Shown one piece after another: positions 18,567-26,876 of a stretch of 45,246 nucleotides of DNA. The stretch is taken from the IMG/VR virus record IMGVR_UViG_3300010354_000156, positions 1 through 45,246 of that record. One strand, given 5' to 3'. Within the stretch, counting starts at the first letter, position 1, and each line of letters opens with the position of its first letter. The stretch comes from a virus. A model generated the notes under the pieces. That model was not told the DNA's origin and did no database searches. It saw only the letters and a program-made list of their open reading frames with translations. The position numbers and the translations under genes are program-made.

Positions 18567-21500
18567 ATGGCAGACGAACAAATTGTAACGAGTATAGTCG
18601 CCAAAGCTGACTTATCTAGCCTTGTGTCTGAAGTACACAGGGCTACAGCTAGTTTACAGCAATTACAAAGAGAATTAATTACATCAAATAAATCTATAGC
18701 ATCTGCAACAAAGGTTGCTAATAATTTATTTAGAGATTCTCTTATTGGTAGCGGAATGTACTCCAGCCACTTTGTCAATCTGCAATCAGATGTAGATAAA
18801 TTTGGAAAAAATCTTGATGCTGGAAGACTTAAACTTAAAGATTATTTTTCTACATTTAGAACTCATATAAAAACTTCAAAAGGATTAATTAGAGAACTTG
18901 CTCAAGAACAAGTTATGCTTCAAAATGCTGTAATGCAACCTTTGGGAAGAAATGCTCAAGGTTTAATGCAATACAATGTAATGATTCCAAGAGGTTTAGA
19001 TTTAACAAAAAATAAAATTCAATTAGCTAGAATGGAAATGCAGATAATGAATAAAGCATTATCTGAAGGAGCAACCTCATTAATAAATTGGGGTAAAAAT
19101 ACACAGTGGGCTGGACGACAGCTGACAGTAGGTCTTACAGTCCCGCTTGCAATGTTTGGTTCCCAGGCTGCAAAAGCATTTAGAGAAGCAGATCAAGAGT
19201 TAACAAGATTAGTTAAGGTTTATGGAGATTTATCAGGAAGCACATCTAAAGATTTAGCACAGATAAGAAAAGATGTTACTCAAACTGCAAAAGAATTATC
19301 TTCTACTATGGGAGTTTCTTTTAAAGAAACAATTGGGCTTGCTGCTGATATAGCCGCAACTGGACAACAAGGACAACAGCTTTTAGGATCTCTTCAGGAA
19401 ACAACCAGATTGGCTGTGCTTGGAGAGGTTGATAGAGCTGAAGCAATGAAGGCAACTTTAGCAATTCAAACAGCATTTAAATCAAACACTCAAGAACTAA
19501 CAGAATCCATTAACTTTTTAAACGCCGTAGAAAACCAAACTTCAACAACCCTTAATGATCTTGTGGAAGCAATTCCAAAAGCTGGAACTGTTGTAAAACA
19601 ATTAGGCGGAGACGTACAAGATTTAGCTTTATATTTAACAGCTATGCGTGAAGGTGGAGTAAATGCTTCAGAAGCAGCCAACGCATTAAAGTCTGGCTTA
19701 GCTTCTATGATCAACCCAACAAAACAAACAATAGGGGTAATGTCAGATTTTGGAATTGACATAATGGGAATGGTTCAACGTAATACTGGAAATACTACGG
19801 GAATGATTATGGAGTTGCAGCGAGCTTTAGATGGACTGGATCCATTAAGTAAAGCAAGAGCACTTGAGCAAATGTTTGGTAAATTTCAGTTTGCAAGAAT
19901 GGCAGCTCTTTTTAATAACTTAGGAAAAGAAGGAAGTCAAACTCTTCAGGTTATGGAGTTAATGAATGCAAGTGCTTCCCAGCTAGCTAACATAGCCAGT
20001 CGAGAATTATCGATGGTAACTGAATCTGCTTCTGGTAAATATAGAAGAGCGATAGAAGGATTGAGGGCAAGCCTTGCTGATGTTGGTGAAGAATTTTTAG
20101 GAGTAGCAACTAAATTTTTAAATGCTTTTACCAAAGTTTTAGATTTTTTTAACAATCTACCAGAACCAATTAAAAAAGCTGTAACTTATTTGGGAGGTTT
20201 TACAGCAGTAATTGGTCCAATAATTATGTTAACTGGTGTACTTGCTAACTTTTTTGGATATATAACTAAAGGCATAGTTCAATTAAGAGCATTTTTCCAA
20301 AGAGCTCATGGATGGAAAATGCTTACTCCAGAAATTATAGCTGCAGAAAAAGCATCTCAAATGGTAGAAAAAGCATTTTATTCTGATGCTAAAGCTGCAG
20401 AGGTTTTACATGGAGCATTAACTAAATTAGTTTCAGACTATATGAATCTACAAAAAGCTATGCTTACAGGGTCTGTTCCAGTAAACCCTGCTGTTAATAC
20501 AGTTGGCGGATCCACAGTTATTAATCCTTTAAGAAGAGTTGTTAATCCAAATGATCCATATGCTGGAGAAATTAATACAAGAGCAATGTCTCATATTAAC
20601 CCAAGAGATCCAAATAACCCAGCATCTATATTCGGAGGAGTTCCTGGAGCGGTTCCAGTTAATAGAGGAATTTTAAGAACTCCACAAATATTTATGCAAG
20701 ACAGACTCCCAAATATAGAAGGTTTAACTTCAGTAAAAGGAATATCTACTGGAATAGTTGCTGGAGAAGCTGCCAGATTTCACGCACTGATGGCAACTCT
20801 TGGAATGCAAACTGAAGCGGAAGTTGCTAGTTTAAAGAAAACTATTGCACTAGGTGGCACTGTAAGTGCAGAACTTTTAGATACTTTTGATGACATATTA
20901 CCAATTACAACAAGATTAGCAGACAATGCAGCAACGCAATCAGCTAGAATTGTCTCAGAACTAAGAGCTGGGAAAATGACAGTTGATGCGGCTAAAACAG
21001 AAATAATGGCTATTAATGCACAACTAGAAGCTTCTTTAAAATCAGAAGTTGCTGCATATGCTGCAGTACGTGGCAGAACAATTGATTTTACAAAAGCTCC
21101 ATTAATGAATCAGCCAGTAGTCGATGCTACTGGACAATTTACATTAAGAGATTTATACAAAAAAGAAGCAAACAGAGCTGTTATGGAAGAGTTTGGAAGA
21201 CTTCGTGGAATCAGAACATTTGGAGCCCCATACAGCATTCAAACAACTAGGTTTCCAAAATTAAATTCTGGAGGACAGGTAGAATCATTTGGACCAAATA
21301 AAACTCAAGTATCTGGCCCAACATCAATTAACTATGATGATAGATTAGGTTCTGTTCCGCTAGGTGGTTATGTATTAAATCAGCAAGCTTCAATGGACCC
21401 AGCAAATGCATCACTTGTTGCTATGGCCCCATATACTTATGAAAATGGCGGAGAGATAACAGCAGCATTAACTCCAGGGGAAATAGTATTTGGACCTAAA

Positions 21501-24500
21501 ATTCAAAGAGATCCAATGCTATATGCAGCGGTAGATGCTGCCAATAATGGATATAATTTTGGTGGACAAATAATGAGAGGCATAGGAAACTATGGAGCCT
21601 GGGATGATTATAGATCGAGAGCAGCAATAGCAGAAAGATATGACGTATCATCAAATTGGACAGAAGAGGCCAAGTTTAGAATGAAAATAAATGCAGCTTC
21701 AGCTCTTGTTTCAGTAGGAGTAGATCCTAAAGAAGCTGTTAAAATGGCACATGAAGATGTTGAAGAGGCATATACTAAATCTACATCAAAAACTTCAGGT
21801 AGAGTAAGTCGTGCTAAATTCAAACAAGAAGCTTTAAGAATTATCAAAGAAAGGCAAAGAAAATTAACTGGGCTTGGAATTCAAAATAGATTATTGGGCG
21901 TTGGCTCAGGAACTATGAATTTACATGCTTCTCAAATTGATTCAGGCTCTATAAATCTTCTTAAAGAATTAACAGGAGATAAAAACATTGTATCTAATCT
22001 TCGTGCAGGAGAAGTTGATAGAATTTATAAGTCTATTTTTGGAATCACTACAGATAATTTAAATAATTTAGAAGAAAAATCTTTGCTTGCAATGCTAAGA
22101 GATAAATCAAATAATAAATTTGCATCTGAGCATATGTCACCAAGAGACATAAAAGGTAAAACTTCTTCAAGCGGAGCTTGGGGATATAACGCAAGAGGAA
22201 ATTATCTACAGGCTATGGCTGGGGAATCAGATATTAACTGGATGCATGCTCAACTTGGAGATGTTAGAAAAAGAAAATTATGGGGTAATTTTGTTGCATT
22301 TGATAGCCCACATGCAAAATCATTAGTTGATTGGGCTGCAAAAACATCTGGGGTTGGAAATATGCAAGAGCTTCGCCAATCATTAAAAAGAGGTGCCGTA
22401 GGAAATAAATCGTTCTTAAAGTTTTTATCTTTAATTAGAAATCCAAGATTTAACTTAATGCCGAGAGCTTCTTTTGTAGATGCTAGATTAAATTCAGGAG
22501 GAGCAGTGCCTGGAGGTTCTATAAGACACGGAAGATATGGATATGGATTAAATCCAATGTCGTTATTAACTCCAGAAAAAATGCTTAATGTTTTGCGTAC
22601 ATCTAAAGAACTTAGTAGCAAAGCAGCACTTGGAGAATTTGCAAACATGTCTCCAGCTTCTTATAGTCATCAAATTATGCCAAGTTCTGGAAAAAGTTAT
22701 CCAATTCCTGGAGTTTCTGGTATATATAAAAATGATAAGGGAGATTTAGTATTTTTTAAAGGTGTTCCAAATGAAATTACTGCAAAAGCAGAAATGTATG
22801 GAACCAGAATGGCCAGAGAGGTATTTGGATTAGATTCTCCAAATCAAACAGTTAGAACTATATTAAATCCATTCGATCCAGCTAGAAAGAGCAAATTGTT
22901 AGGATTGGAATCCCCTTTTGATTCCAGGTTTTCAGCTGGTGGAACTAAATTTACAGAAGATCAAATGATTAGACAAACTGTTGCTTCTTTATTAATGGGC
23001 AATAAAGATTTGTCCAAGTCTAATGTTTTTGGAAACGTGTTAGCTGATGTTGGACCAGCAGGAGTATTCCCTAGAGCATCAATGAATACCGCTTTTGCAG
23101 AATCAATGAATTCAATGGAAAAACAGGCAATGATAAACCTTCTTGCCGTGAGAGGTGGAGCAAGAAAAGATTTTGCACACAACACATCTTCAATAGCAGC
23201 AGGAATGTCTCCAAGACAATATGGCGCAAAAATGAAATCAGCTATGAAAAAAATGCATCCAAAGCTACAAGCATTTATTAATTCACTTCCAGAATCTGAC
23301 AGAGCTCCATATATAGCAATGCTAGCAAGACTTGAAGATGGAATGAATGTTAACTGGAGCAAATATCAATCAATTCATGCTAATCCAGCTTTTAATAAAG
23401 GCGGAGGAGTTATTAGTCGAAATAGGTCTTCATACGGAAATAGAAAGCCAGCAGGTTTTAGAGAAGGAGAAATGGGAACAGGCAGAACAGCTAGAAGAAG
23501 GGGAACTTTTGGAGTTTATAATCCTGGCAATGTAATGTTTGATCGCATAGCAGATCCATTAGAAACAGCAATGCTTCAGGCTAGAGCTGGCTTAATGACA
23601 TATGGATCTCAGCTTAAAGATTCAGGAATAATGATAGCGGAAACTTCTAAAGCCATGGCAATACAAACTAGGGCTGGCTTAATGGCATATGTTGCACAAA
23701 CTAAATCCGCAGCAACAACGTTAGCAAGTACTGGAAGATACATTGGACTTAGAACAAGAATTCTTATGGACAACATGTCTACTAAATTAAATCCTTTAAG
23801 GCTAGAAGCTTATCAACAACACAGAGAAGCTGGAACACTTCAAACTCATTATAAGCCTGGAATGATAACTGGACCAATTGGATTGACTCCATGGCAACAA
23901 CAATCACTTCAAGATGGTAGACAACTAGAAAGCAGAAAATTAGGATATTATGGTTTTAGAAAAACTGAATATCGTTTAGATGGACAAAACATATCAAGAG
24001 CAGAAGCCCAAAGACAAGGATTGGTTGCCCCAAGAGGCAGTATTGGCTATGGCGGACAAATGGCAATGGGTATGGCAGGAATGGCAGCAGGAAGTGCTTT
24101 AATGTCTCAGGGCAAAACTGGTTTAGGAATGGGCCTGATGATGGGATCAAGCATAATTCCTATGATGATGCCACAAATTATTGCCGCATTAACTAAGTTA
24201 AAAATGAGCATGATTGCTGTTGCTTCTGTATTTAAAGCAGGAACATTTAGCGTGAACACCTTTGTAACAGCATTAACGAAAATAAAATCCGCTGGTCCGT
24301 TAATAATAATAACAGCAATAATAACAGCTCTTGGAATTTTAATTAAAAAAACAAGAGAGTGGAATAGGGATGCTCAGCTAAGATTTGGAATGAATGCTAA
24401 ATCAGCAGAAGAGGCTGGAATAAAATACACTAGCTTGGCTGATAAGATGAAACTTGTTGCACAAAGACAGGCTTCTTTACAAAATGTTGGTAAGGGTGGA

Positions 24501-26876
24501 GGAAGTTTAAGCGGAATTTCAGGACTAAATATGTCAATGCAAGAATTAAAAGAAGCCAAGGAATATGCAAAAGAAAATCTGGGATCCTTTGTAGATTCAT
24601 TTAATAGAGCAGATGCAGAAAATATTGCTGAATTGGCAACCAACATAAAGGCACAATTTATTGCTGCTGGTATGAGTGTTGAAGAAGCAAATAAAAAAAT
24701 TATGGGAATGATTTCTGCCTCTAAAAATGCTAACTTAGCGGTAAAAGTTTTATCAGATAGATCATTTACTTCTGTAAGAGATGCATCATCAGCAGCAGAA
24801 TATTCAGTTAAAAGTTTATCTGGAGTTATTACTGCTGGTAGCACTGAAGTAGAGCAGTATGACACAAAAATTATAGAGGGAATTAGTTCAGTAATAGACC
24901 TTACAGACAAAGCAATTGTTTCTACTTCACAACAAAAAGATGCTGTAGGAAATTTAAAAGGAGAATATAAGGCTTTATTAGAAACTACTAATAAATTAAA
25001 ATCAATAAAAGGTTTTAATCAAGAAATAGGCGTAGACGCATATAATGCTTTGCCAGCAGAACTTAGCGCAATATCATCAAAGAGCGACACAATAGCAGGA
25101 ATTTATGCCAAATGGAGACTATATCTTAAAGGAGTTAAGATAGATCTTCAAGCAATTAGTTCAACAACAGCAGAAGCAATTGATAAATATTTAACAGCTT
25201 TTACTGCCGCTCAAGATTCTTTGGTAGAAGAAGGAAAATCAGCATTCAAAAATAATTTAGGTGCAGATAAACTCGACGGCACATTTAGAAAAGTTGGGTT
25301 TACTATGGCTAGCTTGCAAAATATAATTGATCAAACTGGTAGAGAAGCAGCATTAGCACAACAAAAAGCTTCAAGGTCTGTAGAGGATCAAAATGAAAAA
25401 TTACAAAAACAAATTGATTTAATTCAAAAAGCTGCTGATGAAAAATTAAAAGCATTAGATGCAACTCAGTCTAGAGAAAATTATGAAATAGAACTTCAAA
25501 AATCTAGATTGGATTATCAAGCTGCTGTAGCAAGAGGAGATTTTGCTGCAGCAGAAAGAGCTAGATTAAATTTACAACAGTTGCAAAAAACTCGTCAAGT
25601 AGAGCAAGCAAAGCTTGCAATACAAGAAGATGCTAATGCACAACAGGAAAAAATAAGAAAACAGCAAGAAGCACTTGCCAAGGAAGAAAAGAAAAGACAA
25701 AGAGCTTTCCAGGACGCACAAAACGAAGCGGCTAGAGCTCAAGAGGCAATGAATAAGATTGCTTCTTTTAGTTCTCAATATAAAGATTTATTATTACAAA
25801 AGCAAACAAATCAATTTATAACAAATGCCTCTGAAAAAAGATTAGCTGATAATCAAACTAATAATCAATTGCAAGCATTAGTTCTTCAAATTCAACAAGC
25901 AGCAACAGTTCAAAAAGGTAAACCAGGTTATGACCTTGCTGCAGATATCAAAAAAGCTTTTAGTCAATTTTTTGACCCAGTAACTGGTAAAGCATTAAAG
26001 TTTGATGCAACAACACAAACTCCAACATATAGTACAACTTCTGGATTGTCTTTAACAAGTAACACCGTAAAGGGTCAAATGTCTAATGTTTTAGATGCAG
26101 ACATGAAAACTGTTCGTGCACAAGCATTACTAATAACTGGTGGCATGACGATTAAAGAATTAGCAGCCTCAATAAAGAAAGATTTAGGCCAATGGAAAGA
26201 TGATAAAGATGATCCAGACACAATAACTCCTGGAAAATCAGACAGCACATCAATAGCAACTATTACCGCAGAAAGCGGACAGCAAGCAAGCGGTAAAGCT
26301 ATGGGCTTAGCAAAAGATAAAAAAACAAAAATATTTACTGCAGAAAGCGGAATGACTTTTGCAGTATTTAATTATAAAGGTAAAACATATGCAACTGCTC
26401 TTAACGGGTCTGGTATTTATAAGTACGACACCAACAAAAATGTTTTAGGAGAGTTGGTTCAGGCTAGAAATATGAACAGCGGAGGACAAGTTTTTGGTCC
26501 TGGAACAGGAACATCCGATTCAATTCCAACAATGTTATCAAATGGAGAATACGTAATAAATGCAAAATCTGCACAAAATGTTGGATACGGATTTTTAAAT
26601 AGTATAAATAATATGGCAATGGGCGGGATAGTTGGAAATGTATCAATGCCTAAATACAATTTAGGTGGAATGCTGGCTAGGTCTCAGAGACTCAATATGG
26701 CAAATGGAGGGCATGTTGGTAATGTTATAATAGACTTAGATATTCATGCTTCTCCAGGAATGGACGAGAGAGCTTTAGCTAGGGCGGCAGCTAGAGAAGT
26801 ATTTGCAGCAATCAATGATAAGAAGTTACAAATGGGTTCTGGAAAGATGTCTCAATTAAATAGGATGGTAATATGA
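18567..26876 (+). CDS. Tape measure protein, 2769 residues
   Basis: The protein sets tail length and reaches through the tube. Residues about 175-505 match the TP901-type tape measure core (WAGRQLTVGLTVPLAMFGSQ, LYLTAMREGGVNASEAANAL). Hydrophobic segments lie near 541-566, 1829-1875 and 1908-1928. GG-motif blocks ending in TPGEIVFGP (about 970-985) and SNGEYVINAKSA near the C-terminus are usual in such proteins. Residues about 2258-2445 are a long charged coiled coil. Residues about 1380-1510 show a kinase-like pattern (see findings). At roughly 0.15 nm per residue, the established ratio, the tail would be about 415 nm. TAAGGAG lies before the ATG. Confidence 0.95.
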   Translation: MADEQIVTSIVAKADLSSLVSEVHRATASLQQLQRELITSNKSIASATKVANNLFRDSLIGSGMYSSHFVNLQSDVDKFGKNLDAGRLKLKDYFSTFRTHIKTSKGLIRELAQEQVMLQNAVMQPLGRNAQGLMQYNVMIPRGLDLTKNKIQLARMEMQIMNKALSEGATSLINWGKNTQWAGRQLTVGLTVPLAMFGSQAAKAFREADQELTRLVKVYGDLSGSTSKDLAQIRKDVTQTAKELSSTMGVSFKETIGLAADIAATGQQGQQLLGSLQETTRLAVLGEVDRAEAMKATLAIQTAFKSNTQELTESINFLNAVENQTSTTLNDLVEAIPKAGTVVKQLGGDVQDLALYLTAMREGGVNASEAANALKSGLASMINPTKQTIGVMSDFGIDIMGMVQRNTGNTTGMIMELQRALDGLDPLSKARALEQMFGKFQFARMAALFNNLGKEGSQTLQVMELMNASASQLANIASRELSMVTESASGKYRRAIEGLRASLADVGEEFLGVATKFLNAFTKVLDFFNNLPEPIKKAVTYLGGFTAVIGPIIMLTGVLANFFGYITKGIVQLRAFFQRAHGWKMLTPEIIAAEKASQMVEKAFYSDAKAAEVLHGALTKLVSDYMNLQKAMLTGSVPVNPAVNTVGGSTVINPLRRVVNPNDPYAGEINTRAMSHINPRDPNNPASIFGGVPGAVPVNRGILRTPQIFMQDRLPNIEGLTSVKGISTGIVAGEAARFHALMATLGMQTEAEVASLKKTIALGGTVSAELLDTFDDILPITTRLADNAATQSARIVSELRAGKMTVDAAKTEIMAINAQLEASLKSEVAAYAAVRGRTIDFTKAPLMNQPVVDATGQFTLRDLYKKEANRAVMEEFGRLRGIRTFGAPYSIQTTRFPKLNSGGQVESFGPNKTQVSGPTSINYDDRLGSVPLGGYVLNQQASMDPANASLVAMAPYTYENGGEITAALTPGEIVFGPKIQRDPMLYAAVDAANNGYNFGGQIMRGIGNYGAWDDYRSRAAIAERYDVSSNWTEEAKFRMKINAASALVSVGVDPKEAVKMAHEDVEEAYTKSTSKTSGRVSRAKFKQEALRIIKERQRKLTGLGIQNRLLGVGSGTMNLHASQIDSGSINLLKELTGDKNIVSNLRAGEVDRIYKSIFGITTDNLNNLEEKSLLAMLRDKSNNKFASEHMSPRDIKGKTSSSGAWGYNARGNYLQAMAGESDINWMHAQLGDVRKRKLWGNFVAFDSPHAKSLVDWAAKTSGVGNMQELRQSLKRGAVGNKSFLKFLSLIRNPRFNLMPRASFVDARLNSGGAVPGGSIRHGRYGYGLNPMSLLTPEKMLNVLRTSKELSSKAALGEFANMSPASYSHQIMPSSGKSYPIPGVSGIYKNDKGDLVFFKGVPNEITAKAEMYGTRMAREVFGLDSPNQTVRTILNPFDPARKSKLLGLESPFDSRFSAGGTKFTEDQMIRQTVASLLMGNKDLSKSNVFGNVLADVGPAGVFPRASMNTAFAESMNSMEKQAMINLLAVRGGARKDFAHNTSSIAAGMSPRQYGAKMKSAMKKMHPKLQAFINSLPESDRAPYIAMLARLEDGMNVNWSKYQSIHANPAFNKGGGVISRNRSSYGNRKPAGFREGEMGTGRTARRRGTFGVYNPGNVMFDRIADPLETAMLQARAGLMTYGSQLKDSGIMIAETSKAMAIQTRAGLMAYVAQTKSAATTLASTGRYIGLRTRILMDNMSTKLNPLRLEAYQQHREAGTLQTHYKPGMITGPIGLTPWQQQSLQDGRQLESRKLGYYGFRKTEYRLDGQNISRAEAQRQGLVAPRGSIGYGGQMAMGMAGMAAGSALMSQGKTGLGMGLMMGSSIIPMMMPQIIAALTKLKMSMIAVASVFKAGTFSVNTFVTALTKIKSAGPLIIITAIITALGILIKKTREWNRDAQLRFGMNAKSAEEAGIKYTSLADKMKLVAQRQASLQNVGKGGGSLSGISGLNMSMQELKEAKEYAKENLGSFVDSFNRADAENIAELATNIKAQFIAAGMSVEEANKKIMGMISASKNANLAVKVLSDRSFTSVRDASSAAEYSVKSLSGVITAGSTEVEQYDTKIIEGISSVIDLTDKAIVSTSQQKDAVGNLKGEYKALLETTNKLKSIKGFNQEIGVDAYNALPAELSAISSKSDTIAGIYAKWRLYLKGVKIDLQAISSTTAEAIDKYLTAFTAAQDSLVEEGKSAFKNNLGADKLDGTFRKVGFTMASLQNIIDQTGREAALAQQKASRSVEDQNEKLQKQIDLIQKAADEKLKALDATQSRENYEIELQKSRLDYQAAVARGDFAAAERARLNLQQLQKTRQVEQAKLAIQEDANAQQEKIRKQQEALAKEEKKRQRAFQDAQNEAARAQEAMNKIASFSSQYKDLLLQKQTNQFITNASEKRLADNQTNNQLQALVLQIQQAATVQKGKPGYDLAADIKKAFSQFFDPVTGKALKFDATTQTPTYSTTSGLSLTSNTVKGQMSNVLDADMKTVRAQALLITGGMTIKELAASIKKDLGQWKDDKDDPDTITPGKSDSTSIATITAESGQQASGKAMGLAKDKKTKIFTAESGMTFAVFNYKGKTYATALNGSGIYKYDTNKNVLGELVQARNMNSGGQVFGPGTGTSDSIPTMLSNGEYVINAKSAQNVGYGFLNSINNMAMGGIVGNVSMPKYNLGGMLARSQRLNMANGGHVGNVIIDLDIHASPGMDERALARAAAREVFAAINDKKLQMGSGKMSQLNRMVI

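Follow-up and report, generated by a model that had tools for sequence, protein, structure and literature searches.

The window analyzed here is a 45,246-nucleotide stretch of viral DNA (IMG/VR record IMGVR_UViG_3300010354_000156, positions 1 to 45,246). We found that its tape measure protein (TMP; open reading frame (ORF) 18567..26876, 2769 amino acids (aa)) carries a domain at aa 1326-1609 (22542..23393) that is predicted to fold as a two-lobed kinase; all features described below are on the plus strand. This kinase-like reading is supported by AlphaFold models, Foldseek matches, residue conservation and a profile link to other phage proteins.

The domain of the window was modeled in AlphaFold with a family alignment, and a homologue that is about 40% identical (locus L089, 62 sequences) served as replicate. 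The window model reached a predicted local distance difference test score (pLDDT) of 85.2 and a predicted template modeling score (pTM) of 0.84, and the replicate reached 94.2 and 0.91, respectively. Both models show a beta-rich N-lobe with strands, the alpha-C helix, two further strands and then a helix, followed by the catalytic loop, a short hairpin and a helical C-lobe. Nearly all top Foldseek matches of both models in PDB were kinases or kinase-fold enzymes. The window model matched Fam20C (probability 0.99, E = 8e-4) and CtkA (probability 0.96), and further SidJ, WNK1, MAP kinases and PI4K-II-alpha, while the replicate matched HipA (4pu5, probability 0.89) and CtkA (probability 0.96) as well as BAK1, AAK1, JNK and LepB. 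Best matches in a viral structure library (Foldseek) were phage proteins of large size, with annotations as ADP-ribosyltransferase, portal or PI3/4-kinase. An earlier note on this DNA, made by eye from the sequence, had suspected a kinase fold inside the TMP. The two lobes obtained with AlphaFold and Foldseek, neither all-helical nor disordered, and the conservation of K, E, D, N and D bear this out.

The residues named in the earlier note were all found where it had placed them. These are K1398 (22758..22760), the predicted ATP-binding Lys of strand beta-3, in FFKG; E1409 (22791..22793), the predicted alpha-C Glu, in AEMYGTRMAREVFGL; D1481 (23007..23009) and N1486 (23022..23024), the predicted catalytic Asp and metal-binding Asn, spaced as D-x4-N in LLMGNKDLSKSN; and thereafter D1494 (23046..23048), a predicted metal-binding Asp. 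Shuffled sequences contained 3.5 +/- 1.8 sites for the ordered G-K-E-DxxxxN-D pattern, and the TMP itself contains 3. The pattern seen by eye is no better than chance in a single sequence and became significant once relatives were added; therefore, relatives and fold had to decide. In an alignment of 111 distinct homologous sequences, reaching down to about 40% identity, K1398, D1481, N1486 and D1494 were kept in 111/111 and E1409 in 109/111, and G1375, S1377, G1385 and Q1470 were 100% invariant as well. With about 23 of about 284 columns fully invariant, the chance that four named positions all fall among them is about 4e-5. The doubt that D1494 is not in a standard setting turned out to be unfounded: this residue belongs to a DxG motif, because V-G follows directly and the G (G1496) is kept in 107/111 homologues. 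The catalytic loop of the homologues has the consensus DLS[KPR]SNV, which resembles the DLKPEN-type loop found in standard protein kinases. The conserved K, E, D, N and D make up the set of residues that a kinase needs. The position of E1409 is occupied by Ser in a small clade (L067, 10001-10843; L068, 5855-6697), in which the other catalytic residues are kept.

Searches with the window domain, family members and consensus sequences yielded no kinase match from Pfam, NCBIfam or PHROG. Neither HipA_C (PF07804) nor the Pfam model PI3_PI4_kinase (PF00454) was matched, and a PDB sequence search gave nothing relevant. Direct profile comparison with Escherichia coli HipA was not significant, and neither was a HipA alignment against the TMP kinase profile (E = 0.38), though the catalytic loop falls in register. 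Of the HipA/PI3K likeness that had been noticed by eye, the kinase fold and its residues stand, while by sequence the domain belongs to neither the HipA nor the PI3K family. The TMP kinase profile did match the profile of the GodonK-type family (E = 2.9e-5, score 41.0). Profile E-values each come from one single pair, and shuffles serve as their calibration: 0 of 300 (200 column and 100 block shuffles) reached 41.0, with a maximum of 28.3, and a reversed profile scored 13.5. The scored core of the match comprises the Gly-rich strand, K and E; D, N, D and a common D.G....F.[RK]A.G segment are also in register in the extended alignment. The GodonK-type profile itself reaches HipA at E = 6e-4. 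On these comparisons, the best description of the domain is that of a divergent relative of GodonK-type phage kinases, within the broad HipA-like part of the kinase superfamily and not itself a HipA.

GodonK gp67 (L277, 523-4962; further family members are L298-L305) was found via the viral fold matches; it has 1,479 aa, its gene comes after that of the portal, and a Pfam search with it found nothing. The family of head-region phage kinases that it represents has received little notice. Its relatives occur in phages of Gordonia, Pseudomonas, Yersinia, Aeromonas, Morganella, Enterobacter and lake actinobacteria. Several GodonK-type proteins are annotated as ADP-ribosyltransferase, and one record reads 'phage particle associated protein'. 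Kinase motifs are also visible in two proteins from the structural gene region of haloarchaeal tailed viruses, HSTV-2 gp16 (L174, 10647-12119) and HHTV-1 gp13 (L176, 9436-12738), whose relatives are too few to yield a profile link of significance. A HipA on a Candidatus Nanosynbacter contig of a metagenome-assembled genome (L255, JARKOR010000214.1) matches the E. coli K-12 HipA with 100% identity and probably represents contamination.

The kinase domain is embedded in a series of Gly-rich linkers with the recurring pattern N.GG...[YF]G. Linker 1 (NFGGQIMRGIGNYG, aa 997-1010, 21555..21596) precedes an unassigned domain in what we call slot 1 (aa 1011-1308, 21597..22490); linker 2 (NSGGAVPGGSIRHGRYG, aa 1309-1325, 22491..22541) separates this slot from the kinase, and linker 3 (NKGGGVISRNRSSYG, aa 1610-1624, 23394..23438) follows the kinase. 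The pattern is recognizable in the window's group and not in all distant TMPs. The slot-1 domain has 77% identity with L009 and L042 only; in other relatives it is replaced by unrelated domains, with six other sequence clusters filling the slot, some of which may be distant cousins. Comparison of the slot-1 cassettes with Pfam gave no identity for them. The kinase itself is absent from some TMPs that are 80-90% identical in the N-terminal part. The TMP of L178, 84% identical over aa 1-1002, has other domains where the kinase would be, and the TMP of L203 keeps a slot-1 domain and continues directly with the downstream part. In a search with the N-terminal part, for which the kinase was not used, the kinase was present in 19 of 21 TMPs with at least 75% identity and in 1 of 27 below this value. 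Because the neighboring slot varies and the kinase is missing from close TMPs, we conclude that the kinase domain is an exchangeable cassette in the middle of the TMP. Kinase identity ranges from 47 to 85% while N-terminal identity is about 77-87%, as expected for cassettes that recombination moves or that change more quickly than the remaining protein. In TMPs of greater distance, the kinase lies closer to the N-terminus, mostly around aa 740-1070. Another domain family occupies the same place in two TMPs with a related N-terminal part and no kinase (L178, aa 1013-1448; L209, aa 970-1252). Near the C-terminus, two TMPs carry a CHAP/NlpC-P60 cell-wall hydrolase domain (L003, aa 2794-2937, with a Pfam CHAP match of 8.9e-9; L005, aa 2773-2916).

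Scans of IMG/VR started from the domain sequence of the window and continued with alignments; they gave 40, 77, 111 and 215 matching loci, with the best 80 kept per scan. Among the retained loci, all 191 kinase-carrying ORFs have at least 1,000 aa and are TMP-like, and the domain was never seen as a free protein; the complete ones are giant TMPs, mostly of 2,000-4,700 aa. A scan of a genome collection gave no match at the sensitivity of the pattern scan. At one locus (L040, IMGVR_UViG_3300045125_000026), no single open frame contains the whole kinase match, which points to a frameshift or an assembly error.

Sequence families, length and gene position all identify the ORF of the window as a TMP. 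PhageMin_Tail (Pfam) matches aa 239-438 (3.9e-29), and PHROG TMP families match the ORF with values down to 1.6e-114. The gene lies between a tail assembly chaperone on one side and minor tail genes on the other, with portal, protease, capsid and adaptor genes upstream. A hydropathy scan revealed hydrophobic segments that are possibly membrane-spanning (aa 1871-1926, 24177..24344), downstream of the cargo slots.

A complete kinase-like domain on a swappable TMP module, with a catalytic set conserved in 111 relatives, suggests that the phage injects a signaling enzyme along with its DNA. We infer that the cassette is probably an active kinase that is ejected with the TMP and acts on a host target at or inside the membrane. 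The domain would ride in the tail tube in few copies per virion, probably unfolded or extended because the lumen is narrow. Once the TMP has left the tube in front of the DNA, the domain could fold at or across the host membrane, bind ATP and transfer phosphate. In this way it might phosphorylate a host target in the early phase of infection and, for instance, stop a process or a defense against DNA entry. Precedents from other TMPs and from the TMP-related effectors of actinobacterial contractile systems, compared below, speak for such a route. TMPs fill the tail tube, in mycobacteriophage Douge as a trimer with its C-terminus at the baseplate, and their expulsion is believed to precede that of the DNA (PMC13033339). 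A TurboID fusion of the inner-membrane protein ManZ labeled the lambda TMP in the course of injection, and the host defense SNIPE binds TMPs at the inner membrane (PMC13190303). Further, the title of a reference in PMC10038345 ascribes muralytic activity to the T5 TMP.

Several observations weigh against an injected kinase. A folded domain of 280 aa hardly fits the tail lumen and TMP copies per virion are few, which together form the main physical difficulty of delivery, although the low copy number is tolerable since an enzyme can act at low copy. The hairpin is unusually short, with a spacing of 8 from N to D that is below that of standard kinases, and the C-lobe is unlike known ones. Foldseek template modeling (TM) scores are modest, with a maximum of about 0.45 (CtkA), and all matches of the replicate fall short of E = 0.001; therefore, we regard the domain as a divergent kinase. 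Finally, no relative was found in cultured phages by tblastn against INPHARED (50,697 records).

Four other explanations were weighed. The novel C-lobe, together with fold matches to the glutamylase SidJ and the lipid kinase PI4K-II-alpha, would agree with a kinase-fold enzyme of other chemistry or with a non-protein substrate, performing AMPylation or glutamylation, or phosphorylating a host-envelope lipid, sugar or small molecule. We consider this unlikely, as the catalytic-loop Asp, the Asn and the DxG motif are of the phosphotransferase type and hardly vary. An active kinase could also work in the virion or during assembly, phosphorylating the TMP or tail proteins in the producing cell to tune assembly or the ejection trigger, instead of serving as a host effector. 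Its intact catalytic set and its constant location within the TMP, never free, would suit such a role. However, the close TMPs L178 and L203 lack the domain and retain the tail protein otherwise, and the neighboring slot changes freely, as for cargo and not for assembly parts, which makes this role unlikely.

TMPs tolerate many kinds of large insert, and the domain could be a pseudoenzyme or structural spacer whose only effect is a longer tape measure, its fold being a relic. This is very improbable, because a spacer would lose its catalytic residues, and four of them are 100% kept in 111 sequences down to about 40% identity. That chance motifs coincide in an unrelated fold is hardly credible: the ordered pattern alone is equally frequent in shuffled sequence, but two confident models, structural matches dominated by kinases, the conserved catalytic set and the significant profile link speak against it, and we rejected this explanation on fold and conservation.

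For injected phage enzymes, the head is a known source, as with T4 Alt and the polyvalent proteins, and the main known roles of TMPs are those of ruler, pore and cell-wall hydrolase. With a conserved, swappable kinase whose catalytic residues are intact, found across a large group of uncultured phages, the TMP would become a vehicle that delivers signaling enzymes. Beyond this, with a chance slightly short of even, TMPs may constitute a general platform for cargo delivery, with a linker-bounded 'cargo bay' that holds exchangeable enzyme domains, the kinase being one of them. If true, a siphophage uses its ruler protein to inject an effector set just as the DNA enters. The TMP kinases define a family missed by public profile libraries. 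No report of a kinase in a TMP was found in the open-access literature, and, as far as we searched these papers, this carrier is unreported. The conserved TMP kinase family, its GodonK-type link and the cassette bay go beyond the earlier note. Injected phage kinases are an already known kind, and the TMP as carrier is the new part.

Injection has also been predicted for polyvalent phage proteins that contain kinases (Iyer et al. 2017, PMC5512222). Like the TMP kinase, these kinases are part of large multidomain proteins and show cassette-like exchange; unlike it, they have lost the C-terminal subdomain and belong to other lineages, whereas the TMP kinase has a helical C-lobe in a high-confidence model. 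Actinobacterial contractile systems load TMP-related effectors with enzyme domains, the Tme endonuclease being one (PMC11126660), or exchangeable functional domains, as in Sle1 (PMC13277306), into tail-like particles and thereby resemble the TMP kinase in having such domains on a TMP-like carrier. They are, however, bacterial nanomachines and not phages, their functional domains are C-terminal, and the accessible portions of these two sources report no kinase. HipA and CtkA share with the TMP kinase the fold matches, the Lys, the alpha-C Glu and the D-x4-N spacing, but HipA is a stand-alone toxin (with the antitoxin HipB), its direct profile score is at background, and the TMP kinase is embedded in a TMP. 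The GodonK type, which also includes gp117 of Pseudomonas phage Dolphis, 129 of Yersinia phage fHe-Yen8-01 and a member in DSL-LC01, is the only family with a significant profile link. It has a longer D..N loop and hairpin than the TMP kinase, and the genes of GodonK (Gordonia) and DSL-LC01 (Actinomycetia) adjoin the portal in the head region, whereas the TMP kinase lies inside the TMP. Both have in common, and in register, the motif GG.Y..dG..YVK, the alpha-C Glu, D..N, DxG and F.[RK]A.G.
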